In this document: in pieces, positions 1 to 41,006 of the stretch
How positions within the stretch are numbered: position 1 is the stretch's first letter
Layout: every line of letters starts with the position of its first letter
DNA from: Streptosporangium becharense
GTDB lineage: Bacteria; Actinomycetota; Actinomycetes; Streptosporangiales; Streptosporangiaceae
DNA length: 64,000 bases
NCBI RefSeq assembly: GCF_014204985.1
Contig: NZ_JACHMP010000001.1
Location: 1,054,001 to 1,118,000 of the forward strand
Direction of reading: 5' to 3'
Translations under genes and position numbers: made by a program
Notes under the pieces: generated by a model
Database searches by the model: none
The model's input: only the letters and a program-made list of their open reading frames with translations
Told to the model about the DNA's origin: nothing

Positions 1-3000
1 TTGTCGGTCACCGCCAGGGTGACCGTGTAGGTGCCGGCGGCGGTGAAGGCTCGCTCCAGCTTCCACTGCCCGGCGGTCTGCGTCAGCGGCCGGGGCCCGG
101 CCCCGTCGCCGTAGTCGGCGCTCACCGTCCAGGAGGTGGAGCCGGGGTCGGTGAAGGAGCCGCGGCCGACCCAGGTCGCGCCCTGGGCGACGGTGGCCGG
201 CCCCCACAGCGTCACCTTGGGCGCCTGGTTCGCGCCGGCCTCCTTGATCTCGTACGGGATGTACACGGTGCTGGTGCTGCGGGCGCTGTCGGTGACCATC
301 ACCATGACGGTGCCGGTCCTCGCCTGGGCGTAGGTGTGGGTGACGGTGAACGTGCCCCCGCCCTCGGTCCGGGTCACCCGGGGCGTATCCGGGGGCCCGT
401 CTCCCCAGGCCACCAGGGCGGTGTGGGTGTCGGCGGCGTCGGCGTCGGTGAACGACACCTTCAGCGTGACCTCCTTGCCCACCACCCCGGTCAGCGACGC
501 CGGCGCCTGGACGGCCGGGGCGGCGTTGGTCGTCCCGGTCCCCTCCAGCGTCACCGTGTGGACCGGGCCGCCGCCGTCGGTGCCGGTGGCGAACGTCAGC
601 GTCCCGGACGCGTCACCCGCCTGGGTGGGGGCGAATCTCACCTGCACGGTGCACCGCCCGCCCACCGCCAGCTCGGTGCCGCAGCCGTTGGTCTGCTTGA
701 ACGGTCCGGTGACCGTGATCGCCTTCAGCGTGATCGGCGCGTTGAGCCGGTTGGTCAGCGTCACCGCCTTCTCGGAGCTCTCCTGCCCGACCTTGACCTC
801 ATCGGCCCATTTGATGCCGGTCTTGTCCAGCCAGGGTCGCACCGTCGCGGTGGCCGCGACGCTGTTGTCGCCCGGCTCGGGGTCGGGTACCGCCAGGCTG
901 GCCGCGCCGGCTCGGGCCGTCAGCCGCGTGCCGTCCGCGGTGCCGGCCGGCACGGTCGCGGTCACCTTGACGGTGGCGCTCCAGCCCGGCTCCAGCACCC
1001 TGACCGTGTTGCGGAACCCCTCCTTGACCGGGGTGCAGACACCCCGCCAGGTGTCGCAGGCGGCGCCGGTCACCCCCGGCGGCACCAGCACGTCCAGCCG
1101 CACGTCGGTGGCGGCGTCGCCGCCCTTGTTGGTCACCGTGGCCGTCCAGGTCACCGTGGCCCCCGGACCCGGCTCGGCCGGCGACACGGTGTGGGCGACC
1201 TCCAGATCGGCCCGCGCGGTGGTGGGGGTGAGCAGGAACGACCGCGCTGCCTCAGAAAGCCCGGCCGAGGTGGTCGAGTGGTCACGGACGAACCCGCGCA
1301 CCAGTACCTGCCCGGCGGCGTTGACGTCCACCACGTCGTACACGCCCATGCACGGCGCGGTCGTGGCGTCGTCATCGTCGGGGCACAACGGGCGGGGCAG
1401 CAGATCGGCCAGCCGATGGGCGGTGCCGTCCAGCCACAGCGCGGGTGCCCAGTACCGGTCCGGCGACGCCTGCGCGATCATCCCGGCCACCAGGCCGGAA
1501 TGGTTGATCGCGCTGGCCCGGCCCGGCCCCAGCTCGATCCGCTTGCCGTCCTGCCACACCGCGGCGCGCGGGGGCTCGCTGCCGTTGATGCCGCAGTCGA
1601 GGTATCCGGCCGCCGTCCCGGCGTCGTTGACGGCGAAGGCGGTGCCGCGCGGGGACGCGCATCCGGTCACCGACAGCCTGGTCGGCTTCCCGTCCCGGTA
1701 GAGGGCCGGCTGCCAGGCCAGGGGCAGGCCCTCCAGGCCCCGCTCGGTCACGTACGCGCCGGCCACCTGGCCCCGGTTGTTGATCCGCCCGACCTGCAAC
1801 CGGGTGTGTGAGATGTCGCGGTCGGTGAACTCCGGCTCGGGCAGCCGCACCGCGGTCCCGTCCTCCCACACCACGTGGGGGTTGCGGGCGTAGGGCACCC
1901 CCATCCAGCCGAACACCTGCCCGCTGTCGTTGAGGTCGGCGGCCCGGCTGGTGGTGCCCGCCGCGGTCTCGGCCGGTTGCAGGTCGCGCACCGTCCCATC
2001 GGCGCGGAAGACCACCGCGTGCCGCTCGTTGCCGCGTCCGGTCGAGGCGACCGCCACGCCGGAGACCTCCCCGGCCGCGTTGATGCCGGTGGCCTCGGCC
2101 TGGCACACCAGGCCACCGTCGGTGCAGGGCAGCCCGCCCAGATCGGTGAACGCACCGGCCTGCCAGCGCACCGCGTGCTTGCGGCCGTCCTTGTCGGTCA
2201 CCGTGGCCGCGACCTGCCCGCGGTCGTTCAACGCCGTCGCCCAGGTCCCGGCCGGGTCCGCCCCGGGCGGCGCCCCGAGCTCGGTCACCGTGTAGGACCC
2301 GAACCGGGCCACCACCGTGTGCTCCTCGTCCATGGTGATCGTCAGATTCCCGGCCGGACGGTCCCGCCCGTCCACGGTCCACCCGATCGGAATCCGTCCG
2401 GACTCGGCCCTCGCGGTGAGCGTCACCTTGGTGCCGGAACGGTATCTCTCCTGCTTCGGCGATGCCTCCACCGACCCGCCCGGCTGCGCCGACAGGGTCA
2501 GCGCGAACTCCCGCAGATCCGGCTTGGCGACCCGCACGGCCGCCCGCGTGGTCCGGTCGCCCTGGGCGATCTCGGCGCGCACCCCGATCCCGTACGCCCC
2601 GTCGGCCAGCGCCTCGCTGGTCGCGGCGTACTTCCCGTCACCGGCGGCGCCGTCACCGCTCTTGCCGTCGTCGGCCAGCGTCAGCTCGCGCCGGGTGGCG
2701 TCCTCGGCCACCAGCACCGCCTTCACCGGTATCCCGGTGACCGGCGCGCCGTTCTCGGTGACCGTCGCGGACACCCGCACCCGGCCGTCGTCGCCGGCCT
2801 GCTCGGCCGCGGCCGTCACCGTGAGCGGGTTGCCGGCCACCCACGCGCTCAGGTAGGCGGTGACCGGCCCGGTGCCCGTGTTGGTGACCTCCACCTTCCA
2901 CGCCCCGGCCTGCGGTTCGGCCACACTCAGCCCCTGGATGGGCTGAGCGGCCTCCGTGCTGCCCGCCGGGTAGGAGGCGGCCGCCTTGCCCGACGGATCG

Positions 3001-33456: not shown

Positions 33457-34014
33457 TCAGTTCTCGGCGACGCCCTCGGCGAGGGCGGCCCGCAGTCGCC
33501 GCCGGCCCCGGTGGATCCAGACCCGCACCGTGTTGAGCGGCACCCCGGTCGAGGCCGCCACCTCCTCGTAGGCCAGCCCGCCCGCCCGCAGCAGCAGCAC
33601 CTCGCGCTGCGGTGGCGGCAGCTCGGCCAGCGCCCGGCGCAGGTCGGCCAGGCCCGCCACCAGGTCCTCGAAAGGCTCGGCGATCACCGAGTCCTCGGCC
33701 ATCTCGGCGTGGAGCACCCCCTGGGAGCGGCGCCGCACCACCGTGTACGCGGCGTTGCGCGCGATGACGAGAACCCACGCCCGGAAGGACGAGCCGCCCC
33801 GGAAGGCGTGCAGGCCGCGCCAGGCGGCGAGCTGCGTCTCCTGGAGGGCGTCGAGCGCGTCGGCGCGGTGCCCCGTCAGGTGGTAGCAGAGGCCGAAGGC
33901 CGGACGTTGCACCGGGGCCCACAGCGCGCGGAAGGCGGTCTCGTCACCGGCGCGTGCCCCGGCGAGGAGAAGCGCCTCGTCGTCGAGTTCCGCGTCCAGC
34001 GTCCCGGTCGTCAT
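33457..34014 (-). CDS. ECF-family RNA polymerase sigma factor
   Basis: A 185-residue protein starting at ATG 34014 behind GGAGG; earlier in-frame starts lack a site. Region 2 spans about 15-90 (GDETAFRALW, DALDALQETQLAAWR), and region 4 has LPPPQREVLLLR, YEEVAASTGVPLNTVRVWIHRGRRRL. No anti-sigma gene is adjacent. It is convergent with the GrpE-like gene and divergent (54-base gap) from the small protein/dynamin operon, so it probably controls that operon. Confidence 0.88.
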   Translation of the reverse strand: MTTGTLDAELDDEALLLAGARAGDETAFRALWAPVQRPAFGLCYHLTGHRADALDALQETQLAAWRGLHAFRGGSSFRAWVLVIARNAAYTVVRRRSQGVLHAEMAEDSVIAEPFEDLVAGLADLRRALAELPPPQREVLLLRAGGLAYEEVAASTGVPLNTVRVWIHRGRRRLRAALAEGVAEN

Positions 34015-34068
34015 CGGTCGCCCATCCTCCACGGGTGGAAAGTCAGCCAATGACACCATGCCGGATGA

Positions 34069-34404
34069 ATGTCCGGTAAGAAGCGGCAAATCCTGATATT
34101 GGACCGTAACAATCTCTGGTTGGGGCCACCGTTGGAGGAGTCAGACGACCTGACTGAGCTGCGTCGGCTCCTTTTCACGGCGATCCCGTACCCCACCGAG
34201 GAGGAGAACCTGGCGATGCTCGCCCAGACGCTCTCGTCGAGCACCCCCGACCTGTCCCTGTTGCCCGGCCCTGATGGGTTCGGTCCCCCACCTCCGCAGA
34301 GCGCGGCAAGGCCGCTCGTGCCCTGTGCCCGGCGATCCGCGGACCGCGCGGGCGGCCCGGACGACGCCGACGGCACCGACCACGCGGCGGGGGGGCGGGC
34401 ATGA
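34069..34404 (+). CDS. Small conserved-looking protein coupled to dynamin-like gene
   Basis: A 111-residue protein starting at ATG 34069. The first 70 residues look folded (KRQILILDRNNLW, ELRRLLFTAIPYPTEEENLAML); the last 40 are disordered. The opening codons are less GC-rich than the neighbourhood (CTG-ATA-TTG, AAC-AAT). Its stop overlaps the dynamin start as ATGA (34401-34404), which implies translational coupling and argues it is real. I do not recognise a family; it may be a partner of the GTPase. Confidence 0.65.
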   Translation: MSGKKRQILILDRNNLWLGPPLEESDDLTELRRLLFTAIPYPTEEENLAMLAQTLSSSTPDLSLLPGPDGFGPPPPQSAARPLVPCARRSADRAGGPDDADGTDHAAGGRA

Positions 34405-36227
34405 CCGCCGGACCCGCCGAACTGCTGCGCGGCCTGTGCGACGCCACGGCGGCCAAGCTGGCCGGCGCCGAGCTGCGCGAACGGGTGGCGCAGGTGCGTG
34501 CCGACCTCGACGCGCCGCTGCGCGTCGCGGTCGCGGGCGCGGTCAGCAGCGGTAAGTCGACCCTGGTCAACGCGCTGCTCGGGCTGCCCGTCGCCCCGGT
34601 CGACGCCGGTGAGTGCACCTTCGTCGTCACCCAGTACGAGTACGGTGAGGACGACGGCCTGATCAGGATCGAGCTCAAGGACGGCGGCGTGGTCCACTCC
34701 CGGCTGCTGCCGGGTCACCGGCTCCCCTCCGAGCTGGGCGTCGACGTGGCCGTGATCCGGCGCCTGCGGGTCTCGCTGAACCTGCCGTCGCTGCGGACGG
34801 TCACCATCATCGACACGCCGGGCATGAACACGGTGACCGCCACCAACGAGCGGGCGGCCCGGAGCATGCTGTTCGGCTCCGGTGACGAGGACGACCGCGC
34901 GCAGGCGATGATCTACGTGCTGCGCTACGTCCAGAAGTTCGACGACACCACCCTGTCGGAGTTCCGCGGCCTGACCGACGCCTGCGGCATGAGCTGCGTC
35001 AACACCCTCGCCGTGCTCGGCCAGGTCGACCGGCGCGGCGACGAGGACGACCCGTGGCCCACCGCCAGGCGGCTGGCCGCCAAGGGCTACCAGGACCTGC
35101 GCACCTCGGTCTACGACGTGGTCCCGGTGATCGGCCTGCTGGCCGAGACCGCGCGCGCGTGCCCGCTGGACGCCGAGGAGATCGAGGCGCTGTCGGTGCT
35201 GGCCGGGCTCGACGAGGACGACCTGGAGGACTACCTCCTCGACCTGGAGGACTTCCGCACGGCGTCCGACCTGCCCGTGCCGGCCGAGGTACGGCGCCGC
35301 CTGGTCGAGCGGCTGCACCGCTACGGCATCGCCACCGCGGTGGAGGCGGTGCGCAACGGGGTCCGCGACGCCGGCGCGCTCACCGCCCACCTGCTGGAAC
35401 GGTCGGGATACGCCTCGGCGGGACGGGCCGCGACCGGCTCGGTGGCCGCGGGCATCGCCCACTTCGCCCGCCGCGCCGACCAGCTCAAGGCGCTCGACGC
35501 GCTGACCCGGCTGCGCAAGCTCGCCCGCACGCCCGCGCTGGGCGCGGACCGCGCCACCCTGGACGCGCTCGCGGCGCAGCTCGACGAGAACAAGCCGATC
35601 GCGACCGCGCTGGGCGGCCTGCGGATCTTCGCCGCGGCCGAGGCGCTCGGCCGCGGCACCCTGGTCCTGAACGAGGAGATGACCGAGGAACTGCTGCGCC
35701 TGTCCCGCCACGACGACCCCGCCGAGCAACTCGGCCTGCCCGCCGGGGCGCCGCGGCAGGAGATCGCCGCGGCGGCCGTGACCGCGTCGATGCGCTGGCG
35801 CACGCTCGCCATGATGAGTGAGGGCCGCAGCGCCGGGCACCGGGCCAGGGACGTGCTGACCGTCCTGGAGGACATCGTCACGGCGGCGCTGGACGAACCG
35901 GACACCCCGCAGGCCGCGGGCGGCGAGGCACTGCCCCCGCTCCGCGTCGACCCGGCCGCGGTCGAGGCCCTGCGCGCCTCCCCCATGGTCCCGGCCGACG
36001 ACCGGCGGGCGCTGGAGCTGCTGCTGTCCGGCACCGAGCTCGCCACCCAGCTCGGCGCACCGCCCGGCAGCCCGCGCGCCGAGGTGGCGGGCTACGCCGC
36101 CGCCCTGGGGGCCCGCTTCCGGACCCTCACCCACCGCCCGCTGTCCCTGCGGCAGCGCCGGGCGGCGGAGACCCTCTGCGAGGCGTACGAGACCGTCTGG
36201 TCGCGCTACCACCAGGAACAGCCCTAG
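34401..36227 (+). CDS. Dynamin-like GTPase 1
   Basis: A 608-residue protein starting at ATG 34401. The GTPase domain (about 38-260) has the G1 P-loop GAVSSGKS (46-53), a Thr in GECTF for G2, G3 DTPGM, and a G4-like VLGQVD. The remainder is helical with no clear membrane segment. Paired bacterial dynamins (IniA/IniC, DynA/DynB) often have one member without its own membrane anchor. It is followed 80 bases later by a second dynamin-like gene, and likely assembles with it at the membrane. Confidence 0.85.
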   Translation: MTAGPAELLRGLCDATAAKLAGAELRERVAQVRADLDAPLRVAVAGAVSSGKSTLVNALLGLPVAPVDAGECTFVVTQYEYGEDDGLIRIELKDGGVVHSRLLPGHRLPSELGVDVAVIRRLRVSLNLPSLRTVTIIDTPGMNTVTATNERAARSMLFGSGDEDDRAQAMIYVLRYVQKFDDTTLSEFRGLTDACGMSCVNTLAVLGQVDRRGDEDDPWPTARRLAAKGYQDLRTSVYDVVPVIGLLAETARACPLDAEEIEALSVLAGLDEDDLEDYLLDLEDFRTASDLPVPAEVRRRLVERLHRYGIATAVEAVRNGVRDAGALTAHLLERSGYASAGRAATGSVAAGIAHFARRADQLKALDALTRLRKLARTPALGADRATLDALAAQLDENKPIATALGGLRIFAAAEALGRGTLVLNEEMTEELLRLSRHDDPAEQLGLPAGAPRQEIAAAAVTASMRWRTLAMMSEGRSAGHRARDVLTVLEDIVTAALDEPDTPQAAGGEALPPLRVDPAAVEALRASPMVPADDRRALELLLSGTELATQLGAPPGSPRAEVAGYAAALGARFRTLTHRPLSLRQRRAAETLCEAYETVWSRYHQEQP

Positions 36228-36307: not shown

Positions 36308-38266
36308 TTGACGACCCCCGACCCGAACGGCCCCGTGGCGCGGCTGCTGCGTTACGCCAACGAGGTCCACGCCCTGGCCAAGCAGTCCGGCAGGCAGGAC
36401 CTGGCGGAGATGCTGGCCACGTGCGCGAGCCGCTGGAAGGACGAGTGCACCGACATCGTGGTGGCCGGGGCGCAGAAGCGCGGCAAGAGCCGCCTGATCA
36501 ACACCCTGGTCGGCCGGCCCGACCTGGTGCCGGTCGACGCCGACGTGGCCACCAACTGCTTCCTGTCGCTGCGACGCGGCCCGCAGCTGGCCGCGGTGGT
36601 CCACCGCAACACCGACAAGGGGCTCGTGCAGACGCCGATCACGGTCGAGTCGATCCCCGACTACGCCTCGATGCGTGGTGACATCGGCAAGCGCCGCGAC
36701 GTCGTCAGCGTGGACATCACCCTCGACACCCCGCTGCTGGACGGCCTGCGGCTGCTGGACACGCCCGGCGTGGACAGTCTCACCGTGGGGCACCGCCAGG
36801 TGACCGTGGCGATGCTCCAGCGGGCCGACGCGCTGCTGTTCACCCTCAGCGCGCAGGACCAGCCGGTGCTCCGGCACGAGCTGGAGTTCCTCGCCGAGGC
36901 GGCCGAACGGGTCCAGGCGATCGCGTTCGTGCTGACCAAGGTGGAGGACTCGGCCAACTGGAAGAGCCTCATGGAGGAGAACAAGGCCCGGCTGCGGACG
37001 TTCGTCACCGAGGCGGTCGCGGCCGACCCGGGCAGGACGGCGACGCTGAGCCCGCTCCTGTCCGCGCCGTGGATCCCGGTGAGCGCCAAGCTCGCCGAGG
37101 CCGCCGAGGCCAAGCGCCGCGAGGGACGCCACGAGCGCGCGGCCGCACTGCGGGCGCGCAGCGGCATGGACGTCCTGGAGCGGCACCTGCGTGCCTTCGC
37201 CGAGGGCCGGGACTCGGCGCGGGGGGCCACCGTGGTCGCCGCCGCGCTGTCGGCGCTGGGCTCCCTGACGGCCGGGGCCAAGGACGACGTCGCCGTCGGC
37301 TCCGACGACGAAGGCGACCTGGCCGCCCGCCTCGCCGAGGTGGAGGCCGATCTGGAGAGCCTCGCCGAGCTGACCGCCAAGCGCCGGGCCGGCGCGGTGG
37401 CCAACACCTTCCTCGCCCGCGAGGTCGGCGGCATCGTGGCCGCCCGGTTGACCGAGATCCGTCAGCCGTACGAGAACACGATCGCCACCCTGAAGAGCCA
37501 GGCGCAGATCGACAAGTACATGGCGGAGATGCCGGAGAGCGCTCAGCGCTCGCTGGAGGCCGCCTGGTCGCAGATCGTCTACGACGTGGAGGCCCTGGCG
37601 CGGACCACCCTGGACGCCTTCGCCCGCGATCTCGGCCTCGACCCGGTGAACCTGGCCGCCGACCGGCGAACGGCGCCCAACCTGTCGCAGATCCAGGTCA
37701 GGGGTGACACGGCCGCCGACGAGCCGGTCAACGTGGACCTGGTGCGCGACGTGCTGCCGTCGGCGTCGATGGGCCTGTCGTTCGGCGGCCTCGCCGCCGC
37801 CGCGCTCGGCCCGGTGGGCTTCCTCCTGGTCGCCCCCGCCCTGGGGGCGGCCATCTACTTCGGGCGGCGCAAGATGGAGCAGGTCCAGCGCAGCCAGGCG
37901 GCGATCAGGAACGCGCTCCGCGACCAGTTCGCCCTGGTCACCCGGGAGATGACGCTCGACGTGGAGCGGATGGTCACCACCTGGCGGGTGAACGTCGAAC
38001 AGGCCGCCGACGACAGCCTGTCCCGGCGCCGCAAGGAGCTGGAGACCCGGCGCGCCGAGCTGAAGTCCGCCTCGGCGCGTTCGGCCGCCGAGCGGCGCAA
38101 GGCGCGTGAGTCGGGCCAGGAGCGCATCTCCAAGATCGCCGAACTCACCACCCGCGGCCACGCGCTCCGCAAGGAGCTCGCCACCGCCGTGGCCGCCCTC
38201 GGCGCCGCCCCGCCGGCCCCCGCCGGGACGCAGGGGGCCGTCCCCCCGGTTCCCGCCGGAGCCTGA
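36308..38266 (+). CDS. Dynamin-like GTPase 2 with hydrophobic hairpin
   Basis: A 652-residue protein starting at TTG 36308 behind AGGAGA. G1 is GAQKRGKS (54-61), G3 DTPGV, G4 LTKVED. Helical arms follow, and near residues 485-520 a hydrophobic hairpin (SMGLSFGGLAAAALGPVGFLLVAPALGAAIYFG) with charged flanks, like the paddle that inserts bacterial dynamins in membranes. After it comes a long coiled coil rich in Arg/Glu/Lys, then a Pro/Ala tail. Ends at a bidirectional hairpin facing the Hsp70-like gene. Confidence 0.87.
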   Translation: MTTPDPNGPVARLLRYANEVHALAKQSGRQDLAEMLATCASRWKDECTDIVVAGAQKRGKSRLINTLVGRPDLVPVDADVATNCFLSLRRGPQLAAVVHRNTDKGLVQTPITVESIPDYASMRGDIGKRRDVVSVDITLDTPLLDGLRLLDTPGVDSLTVGHRQVTVAMLQRADALLFTLSAQDQPVLRHELEFLAEAAERVQAIAFVLTKVEDSANWKSLMEENKARLRTFVTEAVAADPGRTATLSPLLSAPWIPVSAKLAEAAEAKRREGRHERAAALRARSGMDVLERHLRAFAEGRDSARGATVVAAALSALGSLTAGAKDDVAVGSDDEGDLAARLAEVEADLESLAELTAKRRAGAVANTFLAREVGGIVAARLTEIRQPYENTIATLKSQAQIDKYMAEMPESAQRSLEAAWSQIVYDVEALARTTLDAFARDLGLDPVNLAADRRTAPNLSQIQVRGDTAADEPVNVDLVRDVLPSASMGLSFGGLAAAALGPVGFLLVAPALGAAIYFGRRKMEQVQRSQAAIRNALRDQFALVTREMTLDVERMVTTWRVNVEQAADDSLSRRRKELETRRAELKSASARSAAERRKARESGQERISKIAELTTRGHALRKELATAVAALGAAPPAPAGTQGAVPPVPAGA

Positions 38267-38321: not shown

Positions 38322-41006
38322 TCACAGGGGCAGGTGCACCAGGGTGGTGGGCTGGTCCCGGGCGATCCCGCTGACGTCGGTGGGACGGTGCAGGCAGAGC
38401 AGGCCGGTGGCGACCCGGGCGACCGGCTCGAACATGCCCGGCGTGCGGTGCACCTCCCGGGCCCCTCCCGGGGTGACGTGCAGCAGCCGGCTGCGGCCGG
38501 CGTCCAGCATGGTCATCCACATCGAGTCGCCGTCGGCCACCAGGCGCGGACGCTCCCAGCGGTAGCGGGAGGTGAGGTGGCCGGCGAGGGTGGCCGACTG
38601 CTTGCCCATCAGGAACTCCAGCGTCTGGGTCCGCTGGTCGAAGATCCCGACCGACCAGCCGCGGGCGGGGCTGAGCTGGTCGGTGCCGACCGCGTAGATC
38701 TGGTTCCCGGCCGGGAACCAGCGCAGGGCCCCCGCCCGGGGACGCGGCATGACCAGCTTGGTCTGGCCGCCCGCGACATCGGTCTCCAGCCCCGCCGAGC
38801 TGGAGGTGAACCAGCGTCCCCGGTGCAGGACCACCTGGTGGAGCCAGGGGCGGCCGGGCTCGCGCACCGTCGGACGCACCACCCCGCCGGGGTCGACCAG
38901 GCACAGCACCTGCCACGGCCTGAAGTCCTGGTGCCGGTTCTGGAACATCGGCTTGTTGCTGCTGAACTGCCCGAGCACCACGGTGCAGCCGAGTGCCCCG
39001 ACGGAGGGCGACGGTTCGGCGCCGCTGGGCGCCTCCTGGTCGAGCAGGCGGCGCAGCCGGTTGTCCTCGTTCAAAAACCACTGGGCCTGCACGCCGAGAT
39101 CCCGCGGCGGGGGAGGCTGGAACGCGAAATTCCCGGCCAGATCGAACTCGATCATCGCCAGCTGCCCGATCTCCCCCCACGGCAGGCCCACCGTGGTGTC
39201 GACCGGGGTGGGCTGCCGTGACTGGAAGAAGACCCACGCCGTGCGGCCGTGGGCGATCGCGGTGGGGTTGCCCCACATCTGCATCGGGTAGGTGCCGCGG
39301 ATCGCCAGATCCGGGGTGAGCGTGCGGACCAGCACCTGCGCCGGACCGACCTGCTCCACCGTGACCAGGCCCTCGTGCGAGAGCGCCCACTCCACCAGCC
39401 TGCCGAACCCGAGCTCGCGGTCGTGGCGGCCGTCGAGACCGTCGAGCCTGCGCAGAAAGTGGCCGCTCTCGAACGCCTGGTGGACGAAGATCCGTCCCCC
39501 TTCGACCCGCGCGTCCAGCACGCCGTCCATGACCTTCTCGATGCCCGGAACGGTGGGCCCGCCCGCTCCGGCGCCCGCGGGCACCCCGCCCGCCGGAGCC
39601 GGAGCGGCCACGGGACCCGCGAATCCCTGCGGGCCGGTGTGCGGGGCGCCCGCCGGACCGGGGGGGATCTGGTGCCCGCCGGTGGCGCCGTCCGCCGGAC
39701 CGGTGAAGGCGCCGTGCCCTCCGGCCGGCGTCACGACCGGGCCCGCGGCGGGCCCGGCGAGGGCGTGCGGCCCCGCGACGGGGAAGGCGTGCCGTCCCCT
39801 GGACGCTTCGGCCGGGCCGGTCCCGGGTGCGACCGGCAGAGCATGGGAGGCGCTCAGCGAGCCGTCCAGGACGGCGTGGTCGGCGGCCCGCACCGGACCG
39901 GAGGAGTGGACGGGATCGCGGGACTCGACCTTCAGCTTCCAGGCGAGCTGGGCGGCGCCGTAGGCGACGACGATCTTCGGGTCGTCGTAGGTCCGGACCC
40001 GGTCGCCGAAGCGTTCGCGCACGACCTTCTGCACCAGCGGCATCCGGCTGGGGCCGCCGGTCATGAACACCGCGGCCAGCTCGTCGACCTGGACGCCCGC
40101 GCCGCGGATCGTCTCGTCCAGGATGTTGACCGTCCGGATGATCTCCTCGCCGATGAGATCCTCCAGGTCGGCCCTGGTGATGTGCACGTCCTCGTTGATG
40201 CCGACCACGTAGTGCGAGGAGGTGTCGAACTTCGACAGCGTCTCCTTGGCCTCCCTGGCCATCTTCAGCAGGTCCGCGGCGTAGCTGACGTAGCGGCGCT
40301 CGGGGTTGGTGGTGACCTGCTGCCACCACTCGGCGTCGATGCGCTCGATCTGCGTCCCGAGGAAGGCGAACACCTGCTCGTCGAAGCCCTCGCCGCCGAT
40401 CTCGTCGCTGCCGCCCGGCTCGCCGACGACCGCGAAGTCGCTCCCGTCGACGGTGAGCACGGCGGCGTCGAACGTGCCGCCGCCGAGGTCGTAGACGGCC
40501 AGGTGCGACCCGCCGCCCGCGGCCCGGCCCGCGGAGGCGAAGTAACGCGCCGAGGCGACGGGCTCGTCGACCAGCACGATCCGCACCCCCCGCACGACCT
40601 TCTTGGCCGCCGCCAGCAGCACCGCCTTGCGGTCGGCGCCCCAGGCCACCGGGTGGGTCAACGCGATGCAGTCGGGGTCGGCCCCGTCGAACCGCCGCCG
40701 CCCCTCGCTCACGAACAGTTCGAGCAGGGCGGCCATGGCGTCGACCACGTCCACCGGCACGCCGCCCAGCAGCATCCGCCCGCGGCCGACGTACCGTTTG
40801 GGGTTGCGCTCAACCCGTTCGGGACTGATGCCGATCCCCCGCTGGGCGATCCGTCCGGCCACGAGCGTCCCCCGCTCGTCGAGCATCACGGCGGAGGGAA
40901 CCCGCCGCTCCCCCTCGACCTCCAGCACGTCGAAACGCCCTTCGGCCGCTATCACCCCGGCGGAGAAACTCGTCCCCAGATCGACACCGAGGCACCACTG
41001 CGCCAT
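38322..41006 (-). CDS. Hsp70-like ATPase with linker and novel C-terminal beta-rich domain
   Basis: An 894-residue protein. Residues 1-360 are a complete Hsp70 nucleotide-binding domain: phosphate-1 LGVDLGTSFS, THPVAWG, phosphate-2 YDLGGGTFDAA, adenosine motif MTGGPSRMPLV. A Gly/Pro/Ala/His-rich linker spans about 364-482. The C-terminal 410 residues lack a canonical Hsp70 peptide-binding domain and lid. They instead contain repeated Trp/Phe-containing beta-strand units (AHGRTAWVFFQS, HRGRWFTSSSA, LRWFPAGNQIYAVG, ADGDSMWMTML) that look like a beta-propeller. It faces two dynamin-like GTPases and probably works with the GrpE-like protein. Role inferred from context. Confidence 0.85.
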   Translation of the reverse strand: MAQWCLGVDLGTSFSAGVIAAEGRFDVLEVEGERRVPSAVMLDERGTLVAGRIAQRGIGISPERVERNPKRYVGRGRMLLGGVPVDVVDAMAALLELFVSEGRRRFDGADPDCIALTHPVAWGADRKAVLLAAAKKVVRGVRIVLVDEPVASARYFASAGRAAGGGSHLAVYDLGGGTFDAAVLTVDGSDFAVVGEPGGSDEIGGEGFDEQVFAFLGTQIERIDAEWWQQVTTNPERRYVSYAADLLKMAREAKETLSKFDTSSHYVVGINEDVHITRADLEDLIGEEIIRTVNILDETIRGAGVQVDELAAVFMTGGPSRMPLVQKVVRERFGDRVRTYDDPKIVVAYGAAQLAWKLKVESRDPVHSSGPVRAADHAVLDGSLSASHALPVAPGTGPAEASRGRHAFPVAGPHALAGPAAGPVVTPAGGHGAFTGPADGATGGHQIPPGPAGAPHTGPQGFAGPVAAPAPAGGVPAGAGAGGPTVPGIEKVMDGVLDARVEGGRIFVHQAFESGHFLRRLDGLDGRHDRELGFGRLVEWALSHEGLVTVEQVGPAQVLVRTLTPDLAIRGTYPMQMWGNPTAIAHGRTAWVFFQSRQPTPVDTTVGLPWGEIGQLAMIEFDLAGNFAFQPPPPRDLGVQAQWFLNEDNRLRRLLDQEAPSGAEPSPSVGALGCTVVLGQFSSNKPMFQNRHQDFRPWQVLCLVDPGGVVRPTVREPGRPWLHQVVLHRGRWFTSSSAGLETDVAGGQTKLVMPRPRAGALRWFPAGNQIYAVGTDQLSPARGWSVGIFDQRTQTLEFLMGKQSATLAGHLTSRYRWERPRLVADGDSMWMTMLDAGRSRLLHVTPGGAREVHRTPGMFEPVARVATGLLCLHRPTDVSGIARDQPTTLVHLPL

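Follow-up and report, generated by a model that had tools for sequence, protein, structure and literature searches.

An Hsp70-type ATPase with a predicted beta-propeller in place of its peptide-binding domain, encoded beside a dynamin gene pair in actinobacteria

Hsp70 is a textbook example of two-domain allostery, in which an ATPase is coupled to a peptide clamp. What such an ATPase might serve once another domain has taken the place of the clamp is the question raised by a gene of Streptosporangium becharense, a soil actinobacterium with a genome of 7.8 Mb. The gene (38322..41006, minus strand) lies in the 64,000-nucleotide stretch that was analysed (NCBI RefSeq assembly GCF_014204985.1, contig NZ_JACHMP010000001.1, positions 1,054,001 to 1,118,000; hereafter the window). 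Its open reading frame (ORF) has an ATG start and encodes 894 amino acids; 32 full-length relatives were found, and the nearest at this locus belong to Streptosporangium, Planobispora and Planomonospora. An initial annotation, made from the sequence alone, had described an Hsp70 that would bind a fixed partner rather than unfolded peptides, without mention of the pair of dynamin genes next to it. We propose, with a probability of roughly 0.55, that the product is a dedicated Hsp70-type ATPase that acts as an ATP-switched regulator of this membrane-remodelling dynamin pair, with the propeller as a fixed docking or sensing platform. The proposal is drawn from the fact that the peptide clamp and the allosteric linker have been lost, which argues against general chaperone work, and from the locked co-occurrence with one dynamin pair, which argues for a dedicated partner.

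Domain architecture of the Hsp70-propeller protein

The nucleotide-binding domain (NBD) comprises residues 1-363 (39918..41006, minus strand). It contains the best stretch of the match to the Pfam HSP70 family (E 8.6e-32), and in the full-length AlphaFold2 model it superimposes on DnaK 7krv_B with a VIA-align Z score of 40.6 (root mean square deviation 2.1, 345 residues aligned, model 3..361). D9, T12, K70 and E148, the DLGGGTFD motif (173-180) and G317, G318, S320 and R321 are identical in all 33 aligned Hsp70-propeller relatives. Following DnaK/Hsc70 biochemistry, we take these invariant positions to be the residues of the nucleotide site. The actin-fold NBD therefore carries the phosphate 1, phosphate 2, catalytic Lys/Glu and adenosine motifs of an Hsp70 ATPase domain, and the complete domain that had been read from the sequence was borne out.

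It is followed by a low-complexity linker, residues 364-487 (39546..39917, minus strand), close to the 120 or so residues estimated before. Gly, Pro and Ala make up 62% of the 123 residues counted, Trp does not occur, and in the full-length model the predicted local distance difference test (pLDDT) is below 50 across 364-485, which corresponds to predicted disorder. The length of this linker is not conserved, because the spacing between the NBD and C-domain matches varies from 2 to 133 residues across 32 relatives; in the Planotetraspora protein the linker is practically missing. Imperfect TGGH...FTGP-like repeats occur in it and in three relatives (L039, L044 and L048), in numbers that differ by species. 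The interdomain linker of the DnaK type, sought as the pattern D-[VIL]-[LVI]3-D, was absent from all 33 Hsp70-propeller sequences; the DnaK of the host has DVLLLD.

The C-terminal domain, residues 488-894 (38325..39545, minus strand), was modelled with AlphaFold2 from an alignment of 33 sequences, with a pLDDT of 90.2 and a predicted template modelling score (pTM) of 0.89. The model has 33 strands, is all-beta and shows no helix of at least four residues among the elements listed; 12 Trp residues fall within its 407 residues. When it was compared with the PDB by VIA-align, 829 of the 974 aligned chains reached a Z score of at least 8. The 50 matches listed have Z scores of 16.6-19.2 and span, nearly all of them, model residues 1..407; among the matches listed are Cdc4, Fbw7, TBLR1, BamB, NirN and designed eight-bladed propellers. 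The predicted structure thus supports a beta-propeller, a circular array of four-stranded blades. The number of blades is probably eight, within the range of six to eight that had been expected, because most of the structural matches listed presumably have eight; the count rests on structure, internal repeats being absent from the sequence. Nothing resembling the beta-sandwich of the Hsp70 substrate-binding domain (SBD) or its helical lid was seen in the C-domain model or its structural matches. A canonical fold of this kind would have spoken against a replaced SBD; the prediction points to a protein that lacks the SBD-beta and lid of DnaK-type chaperones.

By sequence the same domain stands apart. 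Searched alone, it gave no match in the PDB and no Pfam family at E<=10, WD40 and other repeat families included, and a Pfam scan of nine members returned a single chance-level Kelch match (0.17) in one of them. Self-comparison of its profile with hhalign revealed no significant internal repeat (best P 0.31). Like the WD40 and PQQ eight-bladed propellers such as Cdc4 and BamB, it shows the fold over its whole length (Z 17-19); unlike them, it has no recognisable WD40 or PQQ sequence repeats, so that it is not a member of the WD40 family as defined by such repeats. It is, as judged from sequence, a family of its own, with neither a Pfam nor a PDB match. The repeated Trp-containing strand units noticed in the initial annotation are hence repeated in the predicted structure, but not in the sequence.

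Conservation of the module with the dynamin genes

In a scan of genome contigs, 32 actinobacterial loci with the C-domain were found, and the NBD was fused upstream of it in every one. The loci that were placed in a tree come from the Streptosporangiaceae, Micromonosporaceae and Pseudonocardiaceae. The C-domain is rare: a wider profile search of 396 genomes from the phylum returned the window's own genome only, and in the class sample 7 of 394 genomes matched. Within the host family the full Hsp70-propeller is present in 12 of 37 genomes, and in 10 of 16 within the genus.

Both dynamin genes, dynA and dynB, lie within the 10-kb flanks in 29 of the 32 loci, and a gene for an extracytoplasmic function (ECF) sigma factor in 28. 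In one locus (L057) dynA is split across two frames. A 30th locus (L066) lies near a contig end, the best dynB match of that genome (45%) starting 258 bases from the edge of another contig. Other neighbours (up310-, ldcA- and sulfotransferase-like genes) are confined to the 14 closest loci, which indicates that the module outlasts general synteny. Co-occurrence was determined over 37 whole genomes of the family, with thresholds of E<=1e-20 for dynB and dynA and E<=1e-35 for the sigma factor. Each of the dynamin genes was present in exactly the 12 genomes that have the Hsp70-propeller and in none of the 25 others. A close homologue of the sigma factor was found in 9 of the 12 and likewise in none of the 25. 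The naive chance of such a coincidence is 1/C(37,12)=5.4e-10 over all 37 genomes and 1.2e-4 for the 16 genomes of the genus, in both cases without phylogenetic correction. The set of 37 genomes and that of 32 loci are not independent, since several members appear to be the same assemblies. The computation establishes the domain architecture, the conserved nucleotide-site motifs and the conservation of the module, and the genomic evidence supports the view that the Hsp70-propeller works with the adjacent dynA/dynB pair, usually with the ECF sigma gene alongside.

In the window, dynB (36308..38266, plus strand) is convergent with the Hsp70 gene and encodes an IniA-like dynamin GTPase (Pfam Dynamin_N 2.4e-16) whose best solved relative is IniA (6j72, E 8.7e-18). 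The second dynamin-like GTPase, encoded by dynA (34401..36227, plus strand), matches Dynamin_N at 5.2e-13, IniA at 9.4e-9 and 5owv at 1.5e-8; the latter is presumably the Campylobacter dynamin-like protein (DLP) of PMC6104087. The window thereby contains the side-by-side pair of IniA-related dynamin genes that marks an Ini-like module. The C-terminus of dynA (35715-36227, plus strand) holds a tandem repeat of two units of about 55 residues (hhalign 95.9%, E 6.4e-9). The start of the unit bears a faint likeness to helices I-II of a J domain. A J domain is not claimed here: PF00226 matched elsewhere in 16 genomes and not at the position of the window dynA, and Pfam found none in 25 members. Profile comparison with a J domain gave 18 columns and 21% probability for unit 1, a score reached by none of 60 column shuffles, and 1.7% for unit 2, a score reached by one of 60.

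Divergent from dynA lies the ECF sigma factor gene (33457..34089, minus strand; Pfam Sigma70_r2 and r4_2), whose start is probably near 34014. A small acidic ORF of 111 amino acids with an uncertain start (34069..34404, plus strand) overlaps dynA by 4 bases and recurs upstream of dynA in relatives. Of the 29 relatives inspected, 16 have a counterpart, short or truncated in some cases, with an M-I-[LF]-[DE]-R start that is followed by LLF..PTEEE..MF. Possibly the ORF encodes a regulator of the dynamins or of the sigma factor.

A wider clade of Hsp70-type ATPases

A search with the NBD by itself matched 30 of 246 class genomes at E<=1e-30, four of them with an orthologue. Among the 26 class genomes outside the orthologue set, 12 had a dynB match within about 5 kb (rough chance about 6e-25). 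The wider-clade set consists of 42 Hsp70 genes, namely all 41 from the class genomes and one from a further genome (G036), and 9-20 kb around each was examined. A dynamin-like ORF lies within 5 kb of 17 of the 42 and within 12 kb of three more. At two loci (L071 and L095) the Hsp70 gene begins 4 bases after dynA on the same strand.

The C-termini of 30 of the 42 proteins were scanned with Pfam, the 12 omitted being mostly short. None of the 30 matched the HSP70 family. Propeller families were found in eight of these non-orthologous C-termini: WD40 in three (best 5.7e-85), PQQ in four (best 1.3e-41) and Vgb/YncE in one (1e-20); one further C-terminus gave a weak BNR match (7e-5, below the cut-off). 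A ricin-type lectin domain was present in three of the 30, and 18 had no Pfam match.

A midpoint-rooted tree of NBDs was made from 57 rows, among them 32 of the 42 wider-clade Hsp70s and 15 of the 33 family members; its long branches, such as that of L095, are of uncertain position. The Hsp70-propeller family forms a single clade (100/100). The 45 rows with a swapped C-terminus, which are the window family and 30 others, form one group (100/100) apart from the seven DnaKs, and two proteins picked as wider-clade members (L114 and L115) were placed on the DnaK side. The window Hsp70-propeller is, then, one member of a broader clade, separate from DnaK and often found beside dynamin pairs, of Hsp70-type ATPases whose C-termini have been exchanged. 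Closely related NBDs at one locus bear different C-termini, as with PQQ and WD40 in L087.

Several loci of this clade deserve description. At L087 (G112:C124:34001-52000) three SBD-less Hsp70s, two with a WD40 and one with a PQQ propeller, surround a sigma-dynA-dynB set. In L104, L105 and L106 the NBD is followed by a hydrophobic stretch resembling a membrane segment and then by the ricin-type lectin, with no dynamin in the stretch examined. The second locus of a genome that has the full module (L078, G036:C56:38001-57000) contains an ORF of 375 amino acids that encodes little beyond the Hsp70 NBD and adjoins a diverged dynamin pair of its own as well as a dynB-like gene that is split across two frames.

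Proposed function, alternatives and relation to known systems

If the Hsp70-propeller regulates the dynamins, the propeller would dock a single fixed ligand, which could be the dynamins or else a signal from the membrane or envelope; assembly of the dynamins on the cytoplasmic membrane, or their release from it, would be timed by whether the NBD holds ATP or ADP. Hsc70 acts on clathrin coats; the switch proposed here would be broadly alike, with the choice of target moved to the propeller. Because relatives bear WD40, PQQ and Vgb-type propellers, the propeller may be an exchangeable module for sensing or docking on a conserved ATP motor. The fixed partner of the initial annotation agrees with the lost SBD and interdomain linker and with the co-occurrence with one dynamin pair, from which we infer it.

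Several observations weigh against this proposal. Two Actinokineospora loci (L065 and L069) have the Hsp70-propeller, and the best dynB match in either genome has 26% identity, with none nearby, so the partnership with the dynamins is not obligate. For 22 of the 42 wider-clade Hsp70s no dynamin was found within the stretches examined. The convergent orientation of the Hsp70 gene and the dynamin genes in the window does not imply a shared transcript, and an ECF-type promoter common to hsp70 and dynA was not recognised, the best gapped motif scoring 4 versus 3-4 in five shuffles. The pTM of the full-length model is 0.50, at which the orientation of NBD and propeller is not predicted. Finally, physical contact with the dynamins, switching driven by the ATPase, a role at the membrane and a link with the sigma factor are steps that we infer.

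The chief rival, itself unlikely, is that the gene set forms a conflict system of the kind described by Kaur et al. (PMC7159879), directed against phage or responding to damage. The Hsp70-propeller would then sense, or set a threshold, in an ATP-dependent manner, and the membrane effector would be the dynamin pair. That paper describes GTPase-centred actinobacterial systems that include an Hsp70 'sans its peptide-binding domain', and both the patchy occurrence within one genus (10 of 16 genomes) and the high variability of the wider-clade C-termini would suit such a role. However, the window GTPases match Dynamin_N and the structures of IniA and bacterial dynamin-like proteins (BDLPs), and a Pfam scan of five window genes yielded no GAP1, tubulin or vWA partner, the presence of GAP1 models in Pfam being unchecked. 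The Leo dynamin models of PADLOC match dynB (4.6e-20 and 7.7e-16), but this may merely mirror general dynamin similarity, and PADLOC gave no match for the Hsp70-propeller, whose membership of a defence system was not adopted. It is less probable again that the protein senses envelope stress and controls the ECF sigma factor encoded next to it, with the dynamins as downstream targets. The sigma gene is often nearby (28 of 32 loci) and occurs in 9 of the 12 genomes with the module as opposed to 0 of 25 others, which fits this, as does the kinship of dynB with IniA, whose operon is reported to be induced by cell-wall drugs (PMC6715688); yet a close sigma homologue is absent from three of the 12 genomes, all of which have both dynamins, and no promoter motif exceeded the shuffled controls.

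The remaining readings concern the protein itself. Propellers can bind peptides, and the fold of the NBD is near that of DnaK, as would be expected if the propeller were a divergent peptide-binding domain that serves many unfolded clients; but SBD, lid and interdomain linker are missing, the C-domain sequence is strongly conserved among close relatives and the gene is tied to a single neighbourhood, which makes this very improbable. That two unrelated domains were joined by a recent or mistaken fusion, with the dynamins adjacent by chance, is hardly credible. The linker is of low complexity and very variable length, as in young fusions, but all 32 loci, from three actinobacterial families, retain the fusion, and the co-occurrence with the dynamins is perfect over 37 genomes; chance is already contradicted by these data.

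Parts of this arrangement have precedents. From DnaK/Hsp70 chaperones, with which it shares the NBD, its motifs and its fold, the window protein differs by the propeller in place of SBD, lid and interdomain linker and by an NBD outside the DnaK clade. Mycobacterial IniBAC likewise has paired dynamin genes, to whose IniA both dynB and dynA are related by sequence; the further partner in the window is the Hsp70-propeller, with the sigma gene alongside. IniA is reported to sever membrane tubes using GTP (PMC6715688), and most bacterial DLPs are described as occurring in pairs (PMC6104087). The cyanobacterial dynamin 'chaperone group' (PMC5827413) also links a bacterial dynamin genomically to an Hsp70-type gene, DnaK-domain genes lying downstream of BDLPs, and no propeller fusion is mentioned in the part of that source at hand. 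A DnaJ-like domain is fused to the dynamin adjoining Nostoc BDLP1 (PMC6104087, in part), which ties a bacterial dynamin pair to Hsp70 machinery independently; there the J-like domain sits on the dynamin, whereas the window has a separate Hsp70 motor. The GAP1-N2/DO-GTPase systems of PMC7159879, as far as that source was available, combine actinobacterial GTPases with Hsp70, including one without the peptide-binding domain, but use another GTPase family; none of their GAP1, FNIII, GrpE and DnaJ-fusion partners turned up in the window genes that were scanned. A survey of prokaryotic WD40 proteins lists an Hsp70 co-factor gene as a cyanobacterial neighbour and, in the portion available, mentions no fusion (PMC5587647); the portion of PMC9950537 available added nothing on an Hsp70-propeller and dynamins. 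Linkage of dynamin and Hsp70 genes, a DnaJ-like domain on a dynamin and an Hsp70 without its peptide-binding domain are therefore already in print. No report of an Hsp70-propeller fusion, or of such a module beside dynamins, was found in the literature, which is weak evidence because subscription papers and preprints lay outside the search.

We tentatively suggest, with less confidence than for the regulator proposal, that these proteins represent a separate actinobacterial lineage of Hsp70-type ATPases that gave up peptide binding and took on propellers, lectins or membrane modules that can be interchanged; with paired dynamins, these ATPases may form a membrane-remodelling machine driven by ATP and GTP, in which the Hsp70 would be a programmable, propeller-addressed switch for dynamin assembly. 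To our knowledge the physiological control of bacterial dynamins is mostly unknown. If the suggestion is true, the Hsp70 ATPase domain would be a portable switch that can be placed on quite different receptors, and the module would offer a candidate answer to how bacterial dynamins are regulated, with gene sets named in soil actinomycetes for direct testing.
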